Shown piece after piece: positions 1 to 7,760 of a DNA stretch of 64,000 bases. Positions within the stretch are counted from its first letter, which is position 1; the number at the start of each line of letters is the position of its first letter. A model generated the notes under the pieces. It was not told where the DNA came from. It did no database searches and saw only the letters and a list, made by a program, of their open reading frames with translations. The DNA comes from Maricaulis sp. GTDB lineage: Bacteria > Pseudomonadota > Alphaproteobacteria > Caulobacterales > Maricaulaceae. The stretch spans positions 310,001 to 374,000 of the forward strand of contig NZ_JAEPNI010000003.1 in NCBI RefSeq assembly GCF_017643475.1. Direction: 5' to 3'. The position numbers and the translations under genes are program-made.

Positions 1-339
1 ACGTTCGCATGAGCCTGTGACAGTGATGTGCAGGCTGCCGTGGCCGTGATCGCTCTCCTGCTCGATCTCAGCGGTTTCAAGCGTGCAATTGGCGCGCCCC
101 AGATCAATCCAGTTCGATGCAGCTGCCAGGGCGGAATTCACCTCGGCGATATGGGCGCGTTCCGCATCATTGCGGGGCTCGCGTTCAAATCCGTAGACAT
201 TGTCCATCGGCGTCTCGAACTCGATGAAGAGGCCGCCCTCGCCGTCCAGGGCAAGCGCGAGTTCCGCGTGACCATGCACATGGGCATGCCCCTGCGCGAG
301 AGCGATGAGGCTGGCGGCGCCGACAATAAAACCAATCAT
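1..339 (-). CDS. ZrgA-like zinc-binding protein (DUF2796), 3' end outside window
   Basis: The minus-strand frame opens with ATG at 339 and is still open at base 1, so the C-terminus lies outside the window. It starts with a signal-peptide-like stretch (MIGFIVGAASLIALAQG) and then a His-rich HAHVHGHAELALALDG segment. Further on come an FETPMDNVYGFE motif and a second His run (ESDHGHGS). This is the pattern of DUF2796/ZrgA periplasmic zinc proteins, known in Vibrio as part of a zinc-uptake locus. A Zur-type palindrome sits about 42 bp upstream and is shared with the divergent MerC gene. The ABC/DUF3299 operon at 0.8-3.9 kb holds typical partners. The family call is firm; zinc binding is inferred from the His-rich segments. 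Confidence 0.8.
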   Translation of the reverse strand, partial: MIGFIVGAASLIALAQGHAHVHGHAELALALDGEGGLFIEFETPMDNVYGFEREPRNDAERAHIAEVNSALAAASNWIDLGRANCTLETAEIEQESDHGHGSLHITVTGSCER

Positions 340-377
340 TCTGAAATCCTGTTGTTCAAGACCCTTGAAGCACGTCG

Positions 378-399
378 AAATGTTATCATATAACACCTC
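378..399. promoter_or_regulatory. Zur-box-like palindrome between zrgA-like and merC-like genes
   Basis: TGTTATCATATAACA at 381-395 is a near-perfect inverted repeat (GTTAT/ATAAC around CAT). It matches the alphaproteobacterial Zur consensus (ATGTTATAATATAACAT) closely. It lies 42 bp before the DUF2796 start and 50 bp before the MerC start, where it could repress both when zinc is sufficient. A second copy stands at 3884-3910. Confidence 0.7.
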
Positions 400-444
400 C
401 ACCACAAGCCTGCGGGCCAGCTATACCTAACTCGGGAGTCCCTC

Positions 445-810
445 ATGCGCTCAAGCGATGCAGCCGGTATCGGCCTTTCTGCCCTCTGCCTCGTTCACTG
501 CCTCGGCCTCCCGGTACTTATCGCTATTAGTCCCGCGCTCGTATGGATGGAAGATGAACGCGTGCACATCCTGCTAGCGATTAGTGCCTTTGCGGCCACC
601 GTCATCGCGGCCAGCGGCTGGCCGGGTGTGACGCGCAAACCGCTGATGTACCTCGCGGCGCTAAGCGGGTTGGCCCTGTTGTTTGCCGGCGCCCTGGTCG
701 AAATGAGCGAAGTGCAGGAGCGTGTCATCACAACGATCGGCGCAGTCTTCCTGGCCTCCGCTCATCTCAATTCCTGGATGCGCACACGTGCGCGCCATGC
801 CGAGCACTAG
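445..810 (+). CDS. MerC-domain small membrane protein
   Basis: The protein has 121 residues and four hydrophobic segments. The first carries CLVHCLGLPV, the paired-cysteine motif of MerC-type inner-membrane mercury/metal transporters. The classical role of MerC is Hg(II) import, but there is no merA, merR or merP here. The shared palindrome with a zinc-binding protein gene suggests a zinc role, which is an inference. The ATG at 445 follows GGGAGT at about 439-444, close to the start codon but plausible. The gene converges on the PadR regulator at 822-1331. Confidence 0.75.
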   Translation: MRSSDAAGIGLSALCLVHCLGLPVLIAISPALVWMEDERVHILLAISAFAATVIAASGWPGVTRKPLMYLAALSGLALLFAGALVEMSEVQERVITTIGAVFLASAHLNSWMRTRARHAEH

Positions 811-821
811 GGCCTTGCGAC

Positions 822-1331
822 CTAGCGTTTGAAAATCTTGCGGAAACTGTTGAACCAGTCGAGCCGGGCCTGAAGCCAGAGCCGGTGCAAGTCACTCGTG
901 CCGACGCCCGGAGCGGGCGGTACCGGTGTGGGAATTCTTTCCGAGATCGAGGCAAAAAGCGTTTCCCGGTCCGCATCCTCCAGCATGCCGACGAACTGCA
1001 TTCGCGTGCGCAGCGGGTCGTATCCCATATCGATCGCACGATCGACATCCATCAACCAGGACCGCATCAGATCCCGGCCATGATCCGTAAGCGAGAATTC
1101 CCGGCGGGGGCGCTTGGTCTCGCTGACATCCTTTGAAGACAGAATGCCCCGGCCTTCCAGGCGTTTGACCAACGGATAAACCGCCCCTGCACTACCCGAC
1201 CAGAAGGAGGAAGGAGAGCCCCGGAAGACTTCCTTGATCTCGTAGGCGGTCAACGGGCCGTCACGATGAAGCAGCGCCAGCACCATGCCTTCCATTTCGG
1301 TCGGCTGGTCGGATGAGCTGGAAGCGGGCAT
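822..1331 (-). CDS. PadR-family transcriptional regulator
   Basis: A 169-residue protein with an N-terminal winged helix (about residues 14-95). It shows the PadR hallmarks: MEGMVLALLHRDGPLTAYEI, a GAVYPLVKRLEGRG recognition helix and wing, and a C-terminal helical region. The open frame runs further upstream to 1442, but ATG 1331 is chosen because it overlaps the TGA of the DUF3299 gene (TGATG), which indicates coupling. It is the last gene of the ABC operon. PadR proteins often repress their own transporter operon and respond to small ligands; its signal here is unknown. Confidence 0.82.
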   Translation of the reverse strand: MPASSSSDQPTEMEGMVLALLHRDGPLTAYEIKEVFRGSPSSFWSGSAGAVYPLVKRLEGRGILSSKDVSETKRPRREFSLTDHGRDLMRSWLMDVDRAIDMGYDPLRTRMQFVGMLEDADRETLFASISERIPTPVPPAPGVGTSDLHRLWLQARLDWFNSFRKIFKR

Positions 1332-1918
1332 CAGACCTCGTAGGGCTCGTGATTGATGAGCTGGAGTGTATAGGCCGCATTGCCCAGCTCGTTCATGTGA
1401 CGATCGGCCAACAACACGCCCGTTACCCAGACCGGGTCCCACATGCGCTCGACCACGATTGGCTCGTCCAGGGTGACATAGACAATCTGGTTGGGCGGCG
1501 GCGGCGGGGTGTGAACACAGGCGCCAAAATATGGAACCAACAGAAACTCGCTGATCTCGCCACCTTCCTGGAAGTCCAGCGGCAGGATAAAGCCCGGCAT
1601 GCGGATGGTCTCGCCGATCAGCTCATTCTCGACATTGAACGTGCCGATCTGCGTCATCTGCCCACCGAAATGGTCGATACCGGAATCAAGCCCCGTGCGT
1701 TCGAACAATTCCTGGATCCGCTCCATCTCGCCTTCCGGCAGAAGATCGTCCCAGTTGATGGTCAAAACACCTTCGGGCGCGTCAGGCACCGGATAGCGTT
1801 CCGTCGTCTGTGCTTCGGCGACAGCGGTCTCGGCGACTTCCGTCTCGGCCGTCTCGGTTTCGCCGCTGCAGGCCGCAAGGCCAATTCCCAGACCGGCAAT
1901 CAGGATCCAGTTCCGCAT
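1331..1918 (-). CDS. DUF3299 lipoprotein of the zinc/ABC operon
   Basis: A 195-residue lipoprotein. The signal peptide ends in a LAAC lipobox at about residue 18, followed by a Glu/Thr/Ala-rich linker. The folded part carries LTINWDDLLPEGE, MPGFILPLDF, LVPYFGACVHTPPPPPNQIV and GVLLADRH, the conserved landmarks of DUF3299. The ATG at 1918 has GAGGAAG just upstream; a GTG at 1930 overlapping the permease stop is the alternative. DUF3299 proteins typically accompany DUF2796 and a LolD/FtsX-like ABC pair in zinc-regulated loci. The Cys-His-Pro-rich loop (about 126-131) is a possible metal site. The biochemical role is unknown. Confidence 0.8.
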   Translation of the reverse strand: MRNWILIAGLGIGLAACSGETETAETEVAETAVAEAQTTERYPVPDAPEGVLTINWDDLLPEGEMERIQELFERTGLDSGIDHFGGQMTQIGTFNVENELIGETIRMPGFILPLDFQEGGEISEFLLVPYFGACVHTPPPPPNQIVYVTLDEPIVVERMWDPVWVTGVLLADRHMNELGNAAYTLQLINHEPYEV

Positions 1919-1926
1919 TGTCTTCC

Positions 1927-3168
1927 TCACAACTTCACCGTCAGGCCATCGGCCAGGGCATTCTTCAAGGCACGTCGGGCAGGCAAGATGCCCATCATTG
2001 TGCCGGATGTGATGACCACCACACCGGTCAGCATGTCCGTCAGGCTCAGGCCTCCCGAAGCCAAAGTAAGACCGTAACGGGATTGGACCCCCCCTGCTAT
2101 CAGAACAAACAGGAGATTGATCAGCACGATCCCGGCGATCGCTCCGGCAGCAGCGATTGCTGTTGCCTCGCTGACCAGCAACACAAAGACATGTCCGGGT
2201 CGGGCGCCCACAGCGCGCAGGATCGCCATCTCGCGGCGGCGTTCATTCAGGCTGGCAGACAGGCTGGTCGCGATGGAAATCAGGCCAACCAGGATCACGA
2301 AGGCCGAGATTGCTCCGAACGCCGCTTCGCCTGCACCGACAACTTCCCACAATTGCATCAGGGCCACTCCGGGAATGATGGCGCTCAGCGCTTCGTCCGG
2401 ATAGGTATTGACCTGGCGCTGAAGGCGCAGCACCAGCGTGGGCTGTTCCATGCCGATAAAAACCGCGGTGATCTGTTCCGGTTCGTAGGCATGTTCCTCG
2501 TCATGCCCGTCTTCCTCGACGACATCATCGTGGATGCGCTCGATAGCTTCGAGGGTGACGTGGACACTGCGGTCCACCGGCGTGCCGGTCGGCCTCAGAA
2601 TGCCTGTCACAAGCATTGGATGTTCGTCATGGTCGGCAAAACTCACCTCGCCAATACCGTGGGAGAGCGAGATTTCCTTACCAATCTCGTAGCCCAGATC
2701 GCTGGCAACCTGGGCACCGATGACGACTCCCTCCTCATTCGCTCCAAAAGCCTCGCCGGCCCGGAATGCCAGCGGCAGGTCGCGGCCATAACGATAGCGC
2801 TCGAAATAGTCGTTGTTTGTACCCACGACCCGATAGCCGCGATGACTGTCCCCCAGCGAGATGGGCACCGCCCATTCCACTCCAGGGGCTCCGGCGATAC
2901 GCTCGTAGCTCTCCCAGCTCATGGCGCCCGTTGGATCACCGATGCGGAAGACGGAGTAGAGCAGAAGATTGATCGAGCCGGAGCGCGCGCCAACGATCAG
3001 GTCGGTTCCTGAAATTGTCGTCGAGAAACTGGTGCGCGCGCCCGTTCGGATCTTGTCGACCGCCAGGAAGAGCGTGACGCTCATGGCGATGGCGAGCACA
3101 GTCAGGCCGACCGTGAAAAGGCGATTTCCGAGGCTTTTCAGGGCGAGATTGAAAATGGCGCCATTCAT
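1927..3168 (-). CDS. ABC transporter permease, FtsX/MacB/LolC type
   Basis: A 413-residue protein. One N-terminal membrane segment (about 17-36) is followed by a periplasmic domain of about 240 residues and three C-terminal membrane segments. This is the FtsX-like permease architecture of type VII ABC systems (MacB, LolC/E). The periplasmic part has an acidic/His stretch, DEHP and then DVVEEDGHDEEHAYEPEQ, that could bind metal. ATG 3168 has GGGAGG upstream and overlaps the ATPase stop. Such systems act by mechanotransmission across the membrane more often than by classical import. Participation in zinc homeostasis is inferred from the Zur-like site and the neighbours. Confidence 0.85.
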   Translation of the reverse strand: MNGAIFNLALKSLGNRLFTVGLTVLAIAMSVTLFLAVDKIRTGARTSFSTTISGTDLIVGARSGSINLLLYSVFRIGDPTGAMSWESYERIAGAPGVEWAVPISLGDSHRGYRVVGTNNDYFERYRYGRDLPLAFRAGEAFGANEEGVVIGAQVASDLGYEIGKEISLSHGIGEVSFADHDEHPMLVTGILRPTGTPVDRSVHVTLEAIERIHDDVVEEDGHDEEHAYEPEQITAVFIGMEQPTLVLRLQRQVNTYPDEALSAIIPGVALMQLWEVVGAGEAAFGAISAFVILVGLISIATSLSASLNERRREMAILRAVGARPGHVFVLLVSEATAIAAAGAIAGIVLINLLFVLIAGGVQSRYGLTLASGGLSLTDMLTGVVVITSGTMMGILPARRALKNALADGLTVKL

Positions 3169-3869
3169 GCCGACACCCTCCCGGCCGTATTGATTTCCGA
3201 CAGGTCGACACGACGGTCGAAGAACGCGCCCAGCGCCTGGTCATGACTGACGAAAAGCAGGGCAGAATTGGCCGCCTCGCACTCCTTCTGGAGCAGCTGG
3301 ATGAAATTGTCGCGGCTGTCGGCATCCAGCGCCGAGGTTGGTTCGTCCGCGATGATCAGACCCGGCGAGCCGATCAGGGCTCGCGCAGCCGCTACACGTT
3401 GTTGCTGTCCAACACTGAGCTCGGTCGACGGGCGCGAGACCACATCCCCGTCCAGCCCCAGCGCCATCAAGAGCCGCCGGCCTTCATCGCCAAGCGAACC
3501 ATTGGCCATGGCAAGCTTGCGGCGTTGCGGAGAGAAACGACAAGGCAGGAGAACGTTTTCGAGCGGGGTCAGATATGGCACCAGATTGAACAGCTGGAAG
3601 ATCACACCGAGATTGTCCGCCCGGAAGGCATCGCGGCGCGCCGGGCTGAGGGCGCCCATGTCCTGGTCAAGGATGCAGATATCGCCCGCGCTGGCGGGCG
3701 CTATTCCTGCAATCACCGACAGCAGCGAACTCTTGCCGCTGCCGCTCGGCCCGACAAGAAAGAGCCGCTCGCCGGCCGCGAGCTCAAAACGCTCCACGCG
3801 CAACAGGGTCTGTCGCGGCTTCCAGCCGAATTCGAGCTGGTCAATCTCGATAGCAAACGCTCTGGTCAA
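3165..3869 (-). CDS. ABC transporter ATP-binding protein, LolD/MacB type
   Basis: The 234-residue protein is a complete ATPase: Walker A GPSGSGKSS at 40-48, signature LSVGQ at 151-155, Walker B LIIADEP at 171-177, and the switch His in SHD near 210. The TTG start at 3869 is supported by GGGGAGG five bases upstream. It is the first gene of a translationally coupled operon (ATPase, permease, DUF3299, PadR). A Zur-like palindrome lies 15 bp upstream of the start, where bound protein would block transcription. ZrgA-linked transporter membership is likely but not proven. Confidence 0.87.
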   Translation of the reverse strand: MTRAFAIEIDQLEFGWKPRQTLLRVERFELAAGERLFLVGPSGSGKSSLLSVIAGIAPASAGDICILDQDMGALSPARRDAFRADNLGVIFQLFNLVPYLTPLENVLLPCRFSPQRRKLAMANGSLGDEGRRLLMALGLDGDVVSRPSTELSVGQQQRVAAARALIGSPGLIIADEPTSALDADSRDNFIQLLQKECEAANSALLFVSHDQALGAFFDRRVDLSEINTAGRVSA

Positions 3870-3883
3870 GCAAACCTCCCCAG

Positions 3884-3910
3884 GATGGTTGTTACACTAT
3901 AACGACCATC
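3884..3910. promoter_or_regulatory. second Zur-box-like palindrome, upstream of the ABC operon
   Basis: GATGGTTGTTA (3884-3894) and TAACGACCATC (3900-3910) are 11-base arms with one mismatch around a 5-base spacer. The core GTTACACTATAAC matches the core GTTATCATATAAC of the palindrome at 382-394 in 10 of 13 positions. It lies immediately upstream of the operon's Shine-Dalgarno. The two sites bracket all six genes of the putative zinc cluster. Confidence 0.65.
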
Positions 3911-4035: not shown

Positions 4036-4776
4036 ATGAAGTCTTGCGTGAACCGGTATGGAAGCAGTCTGGCAGCCCTGCTGTTGTTGACACCAGCGCT
4101 GTCGGCACAGGACGAGCCCGCCGAGCCCATCGCCACCGCGGACGATCAGCCCGCCGCCGAAGAAGAGCGGGTTCTGGAAAGCCGTGATGATCTTACGCCC
4201 CAGGAGTTGGCGATTATCGAGGCCTTCGAAGCGGCGGGCCCACTTGATATGCCCTACCTCCTGCCCTGTAATGGCGGCACACACGGACAGCCGCTAAACG
4301 CGATCTTCACACGTGAAGACGAGACTCGGATCGAGATCCTCGACCCTTGCGGCCTCCGCTTCACCGACCTCAGCGGCCTCTGGGACAATTTCGGACGCCA
4401 GTCCATCGTTACCCATGACCAGCGCACCGGTGATTTCGCCATCCGCATGATGCACATCACCAATGAGGACGACTGGTACAGCACCTGGGGCTATCAGTTC
4501 GGGGATTACCACTACCGCGGCCGTATCGGTCTGGACGCCGACGCCATCGATATCAGTGCCATCAGCCGCTTCCCGGTGAGAACGCGCCAAAACTGTCCCG
4601 AACAGTTCGAACGGTCCGTGCCGTCCAACCGGATTTATCTGGGATATTCAATGGATGGCCGTCCGCAGCTGATTTCGATCCGCACCCGTTATTCGCTGGA
4701 ATCTGATTGTTCGATCACTTTCCTGGAAACCGTCGACGACTACTTCATCAAGCTTGAGTTCGAGGGAGATCGCTGA
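4036..4776 (+). CDS. secreted protein of unknown function, partner of the VWA protein
   Basis: A 246-residue protein with a cleavable signal peptide (cleavage near residue 23, after ALSA). An acidic Ala/Glu-rich linker follows, then a globular domain from about residue 55 to the end. The folded part has five cysteines, which could form periplasmic disulfides. No known domain is recognised. ATG 4036 is preceded by GGGGGGAG. The stop overlaps the start of the VWA gene as TGATG, so the two are probably co-translated and act together in the envelope. Confidence 0.7.
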   Translation: MKSCVNRYGSSLAALLLLTPALSAQDEPAEPIATADDQPAAEEERVLESRDDLTPQELAIIEAFEAAGPLDMPYLLPCNGGTHGQPLNAIFTREDETRIEILDPCGLRFTDLSGLWDNFGRQSIVTHDQRTGDFAIRMMHITNEDDWYSTWGYQFGDYHYRGRIGLDADAIDISAISRFPVRTRQNCPEQFERSVPSNRIYLGYSMDGRPQLISIRTRYSLESDCSITFLETVDDYFIKLEFEGDR

Positions 4777-7760
4777 TGTCGGAGATCCTGCAACGTCCCG
4801 CGGTTCGTTACGGCCTGATCGGCACCGGTGCGACCCTGGCCCTGATCGTGCTCTTCCTGCTGACGCGTTCTGAACCGGACCAGCGCCCCGACCTGCTGGA
4901 ACTCGTCCGCGCAGCAGAGGCGGAGTACAGCTATCCCGGGCTTAGTGTCGAAGAGACGGTCGCCACTCTGGGCGACGCGGAAGACCTGATCGCCTTTGTT
5001 CGTGCTGACGTCATGCTGGCAGATTATTCCGGACACATGCTGAGCGCAGGTGATGTCCTCATCCAGCGCGGGGCCAACGCGGCCGACAAGGCCGTGCTTC
5101 TCTCTGACCTCCTGACCGCTGCCGGCTTCGAGACCCGGCTCAGACGTGCGGACTGGCCTTCAGCCGTTCCGGTTTACGGAACACCCCGTTCCGATCGCCG
5201 CGAAAGCCTCAGCGCCATCTATGCCTATCTCGAACTCGACGAGGAAGCGGAACGCGCAATCAATGCACGCGAAGAAGTCGATCGCATGGCAGCAATCCGC
5301 GAGGAAGTTGAAGCCGCAACCAGCCTTCTCGCAAACTACTGGTCGGCCGCGAGCACGCCGCCCGACACGCTGAGCTCTCAGGACTGGGTCTGGGTGGAGT
5401 ATCGCCAGACGGGAGACTGGCAGGTCGCAGACCCTGTCTTTCCGTCCCTGTCTCGCCCCGCTGATGCAGCCGCGTATCAAGCGACAATCCCCGCGCCAAT
5501 CCGTGTCCGTCTTGATCTGGTCGATACAGGCGGCGCCCGCTCTTCCGTCCTGGATGCCGAGATCGCGTCAGGCCAGGAGGGTGTGCTGCGCTTCGTGCCC
5601 AGCAGTGGCCTGTCGCGTTTCCTCGATGCCGCGCCGGGCGAGGTTTCAGCTGATGCCTGGATACCGGTTCTAAGCGCAGGTAGCGAACCTCTGGCCGGCA
5701 GTGCCTTCACCACCGACGGTTTTGCCCTGCCCTCGAATGCCGGTGCGGCACTCGAGACGGAAAGCCAGCCCTTCGCGGCTCCGGAGATCAGCTCGGCCGA
5801 ACTGGTGGATGTCGATGTTTCCCAATACCCCCGCGTGACCGTCTCCGTGCGTACGGATGCCGCGGCGGATGCGCGCTGGCAGGCTGCTCATCTGTCCCTC
5901 GGGGTCAACGACGAGGCCATTGCGCCGCAAATCCTCCGCCGACCGACCAGCCTGCGCCCCTTCGCGCTGGTAACCGATGTCTCACCGTCCATGATCGAGG
6001 ATGGCAATATCTACAAGGCTGGGCTATTGGGCCGGGCGCTGATCGAGCGGATGGGCACGGACCGGAGTTTCTCGGCGACCTCTTTTGCCGGTGATGTCTT
6101 CACCCCACGACGCATGACCAATGTGATCCGCATTCCCAACGCCGTGCAGGACTTCAACCAGACCCTGGACATTCGCGGCGGTGGCGGTGCCATGGTCGAA
6201 GCCATCTCCAGTGCAGCGGGCACGTTCTGGCAACAGGGCGATATATTTGTGATGACCGATGGGCGTGATGAGAGCCTGGATAGTCGAGAGGCCTTGCTCG
6301 CGGCAGTCAATCGTTTCCCGGGTCGCGTCATTGGTATCGTCCCAGCCGACCAGATCCGCGTCTGGCAGGGAATTTTCGACCAGATCATCGAACTGCCGAC
6401 AGAAGCCAATATCGAGGTGACGGCTGATGCACTCTACCGCATGCTTGGCACACCGCTGGAGGTGAGCTTCATCGCTCCCGCTGCTGAAGCCGGAGAAAAC
6501 CAGACGCTGGGCCTCGCCTTTCCGGACAGCGAGATCACGCTTGCGGGTGAGTACATCATCCCCGAGAACTTCGATGCGTCATCTGCCCGCCTGGAAATCA
6601 GCCTCTTTCGCGACGACGAACAGATCGGGGGTACGCGCCAGCTGCTGCAGCTGGGTCAGGCCCAGACGGGCACCGCGCTTATGGGCGTGCATTCGCTCTG
6701 GGTCAGTCCCGGACGCTACGCTCCCGAAGCGCTGCTTAGACGCTATTTCCACGAAACCCGTCTTGACCTGGAGGCTTCACTGGAACCGGGCAACCAGCCC
6801 AGCGAACCGATGACAGGGCCGTCGCACATGACCATGTCGACAGCCGCCAGCATCACCGGACGCCTGGACCGCCTGTTCGAACAGCGTGTCGCGCGGGACG
6901 AACCGCTGGCAATCCTGCGGGGGTCTACTCCAGAGGTCACTGAGGATGGCAGCGCCTATCTCGTCCTGGGGCTTGATATCATCTCTGACGGCAATGCCCG
7001 TTTCGCCGATGGCAGCCTAGACCCACAGCTGGGTCTCGCACTGGCCGCGATTGAAGGCGCAGCACTCGAAGCGTCCAGCGTCAATGTGGCTCTGCTCTCC
7101 GAGAGTGATCCGGTCGAAATTACACCGCGCACGCCGATCCCGGAGGACTGGCCTCGCCCTGCCCAGATCGCCGCGGGAGATACAAATGCCCTCTTCCTAG
7201 CCAGCGCAGACGGCCAACAAAGCTGGATCATCGACAACAGCGGACATCTCACCGCGCGGATCTTCCCCTCTGGCGCAAAGGGCGCCCGCGCCCGTCGCGC
7301 CATCGCAGAGTTCTCCGAACTTCGCTCCAACCTGCAATACATGGCCACAGTGGCCAGCGGCATCGGCTCGCCCTCCGGGGTCAGCGGTGCCCAGCTCGGG
7401 GCGATTGCCGGCATTCTGGATATCAATTTGCGCATGTGGTGTTACGCCACAGTGATGCTCGGCTTTATGAATGACGAACTGGCAACCGGAGAGCGCGAAT
7501 ACAACTGGGAACGCCAGGCCAGTGAAGGCTGCGAGATCGACCCCACCAACCTGCAGGGTGAATATATCGGAGCAGCCTTCGCGGGATATGTCACCGGCAG
7601 TGCAGGTGATCGCTATACCGACGCTGTCAAAAATGCAGCTGGCGGCAGCCTGCCGTGGATCGTGGAAGCCGGCGTCAATTCAGGCGCTGGCGGCCTGATC
7701 AACCTTACGGGTGTTGGCGGTGGCATACATTCCGGGATCCGTGAAATCTATTCGCGCTAG
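4776..7760 (+). CDS. membrane-anchored VWA-domain protein with transglutaminase-like N-terminal region
   Basis: A 994-residue protein. One N-terminal membrane anchor lies at about 10-31. A region at about 70-215 resembles transglutaminase-like folds (ADKAVLLSDLLTAAGFETRLRR), though no Cys-His-Asp triad is clear. A von Willebrand A domain follows at about 390-560 with the MIDAS DVSPS (D401, S403, S405) and a later MTDGRDE strand. The C-terminal 150 residues are Gly-rich with two cysteines. An envelope protein with metal-dependent adhesion is likely; substrate and partner are unknown. It is translationally coupled to the secreted protein upstream. Confidence 0.72.
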   Translation: MSEILQRPAVRYGLIGTGATLALIVLFLLTRSEPDQRPDLLELVRAAEAEYSYPGLSVEETVATLGDAEDLIAFVRADVMLADYSGHMLSAGDVLIQRGANAADKAVLLSDLLTAAGFETRLRRADWPSAVPVYGTPRSDRRESLSAIYAYLELDEEAERAINAREEVDRMAAIREEVEAATSLLANYWSAASTPPDTLSSQDWVWVEYRQTGDWQVADPVFPSLSRPADAAAYQATIPAPIRVRLDLVDTGGARSSVLDAEIASGQEGVLRFVPSSGLSRFLDAAPGEVSADAWIPVLSAGSEPLAGSAFTTDGFALPSNAGAALETESQPFAAPEISSAELVDVDVSQYPRVTVSVRTDAAADARWQAAHLSLGVNDEAIAPQILRRPTSLRPFALVTDVSPSMIEDGNIYKAGLLGRALIERMGTDRSFSATSFAGDVFTPRRMTNVIRIPNAVQDFNQTLDIRGGGGAMVEAISSAAGTFWQQGDIFVMTDGRDESLDSREALLAAVNRFPGRVIGIVPADQIRVWQGIFDQIIELPTEANIEVTADALYRMLGTPLEVSFIAPAAEAGENQTLGLAFPDSEITLAGEYIIPENFDASSARLEISLFRDDEQIGGTRQLLQLGQAQTGTALMGVHSLWVSPGRYAPEALLRRYFHETRLDLEASLEPGNQPSEPMTGPSHMTMSTAASITGRLDRLFEQRVARDEPLAILRGSTPEVTEDGSAYLVLGLDIISDGNARFADGSLDPQLGLALAAIEGAALEASSVNVALLSESDPVEITPRTPIPEDWPRPAQIAAGDTNALFLASADGQQSWIIDNSGHLTARIFPSGAKGARARRAIAEFSELRSNLQYMATVASGIGSPSGVSGAQLGAIAGILDINLRMWCYATVMLGFMNDELATGEREYNWERQASEGCEIDPTNLQGEYIGAAFAGYVTGSAGDRYTDAVKNAAGGSLPWIVEAGVNSGAGGLINLTGVGGGIHSGIREIYSR

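Follow-up and report, generated by a model that had tools for sequence, protein, structure and literature searches.

We identified a putative zinc-acquisition module of the Zrg type at the left edge of a 64,000-nucleotide window (the whole stretch of DNA that was analysed; contig C4, positions 310001–374000) of a 3.26-megabase (Mb) Maricaulis genome. It joins zrgA, encoding a periplasmic zinc-binding protein, and merC, encoding a small membrane protein of the MerC family, to an operon for an ATP-binding cassette (ABC) ATPase, a MacB-like permease, a DUF3299 lipoprotein and a PadR-type regulator. Our preferred reading, to which we give a probability of roughly 0.6, is that this is a Zur-repressed Zrg system in which the inner-membrane zinc step would be made by MerC. 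That its genes form one Zur-controlled module is very likely. An earlier sequence-only reading had predicted such a module with MerC as a member, and this part is strongly supported by recurrent sites in relatives, by a zur gene in the genome and by the adjacency of zur and merC elsewhere. Its count of six genes needs correction: the identities of all six hold in Pfam, but a second DUF3299 gene lies behind zrgA beyond the window edge, and the module therefore has seven genes.

Both palindromes lie where that reading had placed them, GTTATCATATAAC between the zrgA and merC genes and GTTACACTATAAC before the ABC operon, and both fit the Zur motif GTTA-N5-TAAC. Zur sites across many proteobacteria share this pattern, and gel shifts are described in which Zur binds Caulobacter promoters that carry it (PMC4176598). 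The motif is common by itself, the exact pattern occurring at 11 places in the 3.26-Mb genome and the reversed pattern, used as control throughout, at 25, so that location and not occurrence counts. Outside the window, the genes with an exact site in front of them include one for a CobW protein, one for a TonB receptor and one of the HupE/UreJ family; a further exact site separates zur from the gene of another TonB receptor, which is rich in His. Three of the 11 exact sites are read as chance. We regard the window sites as beyond chance because they stand before zinc-related genes, recur before the same genes in relatives and agree with an upstream test of MerC genes in 200 genomes. Two Fur-family genes were found in the genome at E ≤ 0.001, one of which (C7:863847–864122) is zur, with E. 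coli Zur (4mtd, 1e-27) and the Fur-family regulator 7dh7 (3.9e-26) as best solved matches; the other probably encodes Fur. Exact sites were also observed between M2 and M3 family metallopeptidase genes (G000:C4:98803–98815; L009:4804) and about 530 nucleotides upstream of a gene whose M1 peptidase match is below the cut-off (G000:C7:1184417; L019:2418), positions that make Zur control of zinc peptidases possible. The HupE/UreJ-family gene preceded by an exact site (G000:C4:101966–101978; L009:7967) encodes a membrane protein, and a second HupE/UreJ gene lies at L009:9614–10240.

The survey set comprised 200 genomes of the order, among which 74 had DUF3299, 69 ZrgA and 67 MerC. All seven genes are arranged alike in the closest relative (L111), and an exact-motif site occurs at each of the two positions: one between merC and zrgA (seen also in L165, the same relative), the other 21 nucleotides before the ATPase match, as in the window. 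In three further members of the genus (L118, L119, L124), merC, strongly diverged in L124, is divergent from a zrgA–ATPase–permease–DUF3299 operon across one exact site. Of 22 loci, six had an exact site in the 400 nucleotides upstream of zrgA, and eight did when one mismatch was allowed (reversed control, 0 and 1); these 22 were drawn from 72 zrgA loci, and in several of those without a site zrgA sits within an operon. The padR gene behaves differently from this core. The sequence-only reading had added PadR to the Zrg gene set, and padR does end the operon here and in the closest relative, but at a tblastn threshold of 1e-3 these were the only 2 of 40 loci with a permease match (many only 3.4 kilobases (kb) long) to contain it, at 1e-5 it was found in 1 of 80 named loci (L165), and no match was obtained in the zrg clusters of the other Maricaulis genomes L118, L119, L124 and L166–L171. 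PadR as a general Zrg component was accordingly rejected; being found in one relative only, it is a local addition and probably a local regulator of the operon that it ends. This distribution also bears on the alternative that a regulator other than Zur, such as Fur or PadR itself, binds the palindromes. A second Fur-family protein, probably Fur, is encoded in the genome, and Zur binding is only predicted, but the sites persist in relatives that have no PadR match, the motif is that of the Caulobacter promoters shifted by Zur (PMC4176598), and in the window's genome its neighbours include zur, CobW and TonB receptor genes; we consider this alternative improbable. An Idiomarina locus (L222) has zrgA, merC, DUF3299, ATPase and permease matches close together, plus a Zur-like tblastn match. 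A MerC–ZrgA fusion suggested by a shared 360-amino-acid open frame in G190 (L121) was rejected, the zrgA gene having its own ATG and signal peptide; compared with the paralogue in L116, merC seems to change frame internally, by a real shift or an assembly error, and zrgA and merC of L121 stand side by side in tandem.

Zur-type sites are enriched before merC well beyond the window. After removal of four rows under the family cut-off, 71 of 75 MerC rows were kept, one gene having only 35 nucleotides of upstream sequence. In the 250 nucleotides upstream, an exact site was found for 23 of the 71 genes, and allowing up to one mismatch raised this to 47, compared with 0 and 7 for the reversed pattern, with 43 (1.7%) and 105 (4.3%) of all 2467 255-nucleotide windows of the same loci, and with 5 of 87 upstream regions of other genes in the merC loci at either stringency. 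The second merC of the window's genome (C7:596662–597003) is preceded by the one-mismatch site GTTATACTATATC. For 18 of the 71 genes, a zrgA or DUF3299 match is no more than 8 kb away, and merC with Zur-type sites, and beside zur, also occurs away from zrg clusters. In 39 of 80 named merC loci, mostly Sphingomonadales, a zur-type gene recognized by its match to the Zur of the window's genome follows merC on the same strand within 2 kb; in two Salinisphaera genomes the Zur-type protein is 52% identical. The Zur-type protein of the Sphingomonadales locus L204, the sole one of these downstream proteins matched singly to solved structures, gave 7dh7 (3.7e-27) and E. coli Zur (4.9e-12) as best matches. 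The merC upstream sites of L204–L244, mostly Sphingomonadales, are often variants (GTGATGTTGTAAC or GTTATGCCATATC) instead of the exact motif, and may be lineage-specific operators. The named locus closest to the MerC of the window is that of Maricaulis sp. HCUG1438-2 (77% identity). Among the papers listed in searches of the open literature, none was seen to link MerC to zinc or Zur, as judged from titles and the first lines of abstracts; these searches did not extend to subscription papers or regulon databases.

The role proposed for MerC follows its place beside zrgA. ZIP-family importers were present in 95 of the 200 genomes (84 above cut-off; 112 rows kept, sub-cut-off rows included and second stretches of one open frame dropped). 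Once zrgA rows under the cut-off, and further stretches of an open frame already represented, had been removed, 72 zrgA loci remained; the mercury-type MerC of G042 was excluded from the count. Within 3 kb, 42 of these loci had ZIP, 10 had MerC, none had both and 20 had neither. The absence of overlap is unaffected by counting only ZIP matches over the cut-off (39 ZIP, 10 MerC, 0 both, 23 neither) or by widening the distance to 8 kb (42, 12, 0 and 18, respectively), and has a probability of 5.6e-5 under naive independence, uncorrected for kinship. The partner was divergent and upstream of zrgA in 35 ZIP and 8 MerC matches, and four genomes (G001, G006, G075, G115) have two zrgA loci each, one with MerC and one with ZIP. 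The window's genome yielded no ZnuA and no ZIP match in an importer search limited to ZnuA, ZnuB and ZIP. Its lone PF00950 match (23 bits) was rejected as ZnuB; by inspection, it reads as a BtuC/FecCD-like permease flanked by a BtuF-like gene and an ATPase gene. Since ZnuA and ZIP matches are lacking and the sole ZnuB-family match is weak and seemingly another permease, MerC stands as the leading candidate so far for moving zinc across the inner membrane. ZnuB-family matches of at least 100 bits were obtained in only 15 of the 200 genomes, three of them with MerC, and an anti-correlation of MerC and ZnuB was dropped as uninformative.

The name MerC and the family match in Pfam invite a different explanation, namely that MerC is a mercury protein that stands beside zinc genes by accident, and that the common site drives zrgA alone. 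This was already disfavoured and appears very improbable to us. The NCBIfam models of the organomercurial transporter MerC had no match at 0.1 in five MerC proteins of the CxxHC branch, the window's included, versus 182 bits for a mercury-type sequence. No mer genes were seen by inspection among the reading frames surrounding the window merC, no family search for merA, merP or merT having been made, and Zur-type sites recur upstream of merC, as described above. Across the 71 MerC sequences (numbering of the window protein), C15, H18, H41 and H107 are conserved in 70, C19 in 71, E92 in 69 and E38 in 56; in the only mercury-type sequence among them, H18, H41, E92 and H107 are missing. The gene for this mercury-type protein (L063) has no Zur-type site, and by inspection the reading frames next to it resemble merR, merP and merA. 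Among plasmid records, 3599 match the mercury-type protein and none the window MerC at 0.01. The structural model of the window MerC (39-sequence alignment; predicted local distance difference test score 84.8, predicted template modelling score 0.72) has four long helices and a short one (residues 3–28, 30–36, 38–56, 65–84 and 89–120). From the helix register, and with both termini taken as cytoplasmic on account of basic loops, H41 and E92 would lie near the periplasmic mouth, and C15, H18, C19 and H107 near mid-membrane. A search of solved structures with the MerC profile returned one match only, which was judged meaningless.

We propose the following mechanism for a Zur-repressed Zrg module with MerC at the inner membrane. 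When zinc is plentiful, Zn-Zur would occupy both boxes and silence zrgA (with the second DUF3299 gene) and merC as well as the ATPase–permease–DUF3299–padR operon; when zinc falls, both units would be released. TonB receptors would bring zinc into the periplasm, where ZrgA, and probably also the DUF3299 proteins, would hold it. The MacB-type ABC pair may act on these ZrgA and DUF3299 zinc proteins, and MerC would carry zinc inward across the inner membrane, along a putative path from E38, H41 and E92 at the outer mouth to C15, H18, C19 and H107 in mid-membrane. In doing so, it would fill the place that a ZIP-family importer holds in many related zrg clusters. A broader and tentative proposal, which we would back at less than even odds, is that MerC proteins of the CxxHC branch are widespread Zur-controlled small inner-membrane zinc importers, often encoded beside zur and replacing ZIP, and that the ABC pair ZrgBC is not the importer but an ATP-driven loader or unloader of the periplasmic zinc proteins that feed MerC or ZIP. 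If true, MerC proteins would gain a role outside mercury resistance. Many non-mercury MerC proteins probably carry a mercury label in databases.

The more serious challenge to MerC as the importer concerns ZrgBC. The module could be Zur-controlled with ZrgBC as importer and MerC in an accessory part: it might offer an additional low-affinity route, act as a membrane chaperone or belong to Zrg as a subunit. In the published Vibrio work on ZrgA, ZrgBC itself is treated as the zinc importer (PMC9820375), and because 20 of the 72 zrgA loci lack both ZIP and MerC within 3 kb, the Zrg core can stand without them there. We nevertheless think this rather unlikely: the permease is of the MacB/FtsX type, unlike known metal permeases (PMC9820375), MerC shares its slot with ZIP, and outside zrg clusters, too, merC occurs with Zur-type sites and next to zur. 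For the route of zinc across the inner membrane in Zrg systems, the importer-like partner beside zrgA, ZIP or MerC by lineage, offers a direct test.

Together with the Vibrio interpretation and the 20 loci without a partner, several further observations weigh against MerC as the importer or against the Zur control from which it is argued. The importer search covered three families. Among 12 members of the genus, the searches gave a moderate ABC-3 permease match in G088, ZIP with no over-cut-off MerC in G103, and no ZIP, MerC or ZnuB in G188. No site was present in the 250 nucleotides upstream of 24 of the 71 merC genes. In the 80 named merC loci, an exact site was found in 22 and one with at most one mismatch in 64, but the reversed control was also high (8 and 26), which makes this set the weaker one on upstream sites. 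The phylum-wide set (31 rows from 29 of 30 loci, three rows repeating loci of the order set) showed a modest excess, with 14 rows at up to one mismatch versus 6 in the control and 4 versus 2 for exact sites. The genomes are related, and the counts are therefore not independent events. No structure reached E ≤ 0.001 in a fold search with the MerC model, and promoter scans showed no sigma-70-like promoter at either window site.

The coordinates of the module are listed below.

Table 1. Genes and predicted sites of the zinc module (window coordinates; family scores from Pfam).
Feature	Position	Strand	Basis or remark
zrgA, periplasmic zinc-binding protein, 5' part	1–339	-	PF10986, 79 bits
Predicted Zur-type operator common to zrgA (-) and merC (+), GTTATCATATAAC	382–394	.	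Between likely zrgA ATG at 339 and merC start at 445
merC, small membrane protein, CxxHC branch of PF03203	445–810	+	PF03203, 67 bits (cut-off 27.6)
padR-type regulator gene, last of the ABC operon, one-base overlap with the DUF3299 gene	822–1331	-	PF03551, 49.1 bits (cut-off 27)
DUF3299 (ZrgE-like) protein, lipobox LAAC by inspection	1331–1918	-	PF11736, 144.5 bits
ZrgB-like permease, MacB periplasmic core and FtsX domain	1927–3168	-	PF12704, PF02687
ZrgC-like ABC ATPase (LolD/DevA type), TTG start after GGAGG	3165–3869	-	PF00005, 92 bits
Inverted repeat with predicted Zur-type site GTTACACTATAAC (3891–3903)	3884–3910	.	21 nucleotides before the ATPase TTG start codon

The Zrg core of ABC ATPase, MacB-like permease, DUF3299 lipoprotein and ZrgA was confirmed together by Pfam. 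From its likely ATG start, zrgA extends leftwards out of the window as far as contig position 309857, and the whole gene (C4:309869–310285) was matched at 4.1e-31 in the search of genomes of the order. ZrgA is above the cut-off of its Pfam family, with PA4063 (7ahw) and the zinc-binding protein chain 8ezw as closest solved relatives; against the NCBIfam equivalog NF047873 it scored 53.8 bits (cut-off 185), only the in-window part of the protein being scored. The DUF3299 protein encoded in the window has the solved relative 4hsp (1.5e-25), the permease is closest to solved chains of MacB and LolF, and the top NCBIfam models of the ATPase are LolD and DevA, both under their own cut-offs. The repeat that carries the second site had been described as an 11-base inverted repeat; it is present but imperfect, its arms (3884–3894 and 3900–3910) pairing at 10 of 11 positions and extending to 13 bases with the same lone mismatch. 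To its right, divergent from the ATPase operon, two adjoining genes (4036–7760; 246 and 994 amino acids) had no Pfam or NCBIfam match at 0.001 and no tblastn match in any locus of the relatives' database, the closest relative included. For lack of such matches to the right-hand genes, this site is best read as part of the ATPase operon. Outside the window, a rhodopsin-like gene was seen by inspection at L001:3192–4025; a short sequence is repeated ahead of its probable start.

Among known systems, the module most resembles the Vibrio zrgABCDE operon, with which it shares ZrgA (DUF2796), the ATPase, the MacB-like permease and DUF3299, and which is repressed by Zur and has a predicted Zur site (PMC9817125, PMC9820375). 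It differs in having two transcription units and two sites, merC divergent from zrgA, padR and two DUF3299 genes; unlike in the Vibrio case, ZnuA was not found in the window's genome. The Zur regulon of Caulobacter crescentus has the same GTTA-N5-TAAC sites, TonB receptors and CobW, its CobW protein gene zrpX being thought to be co-transcribed with a Zur target, but its reported transporters are znuGHI and zrpW, and no MerC or Zrg gene is named in the available parts of that report (PMC4176598). The window MerC is like the mercury MerC of mer operons (NF010318, NF033784) in being a small membrane protein of PF03203 with a Cys pair in the first helix. It is unlike it in belonging to a CxxHC branch with near-invariant H18, H41, E92 and H107, of which the five proteins tested had no NCBIfam MerC match and whose genes are accompanied by Zur-type sites and not by mer genes. 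With the ZIP (ZupT) importers MerC shares no family (PF03203 versus PF02535), but in related genomes it stands in the same slot, divergent from zrgA.

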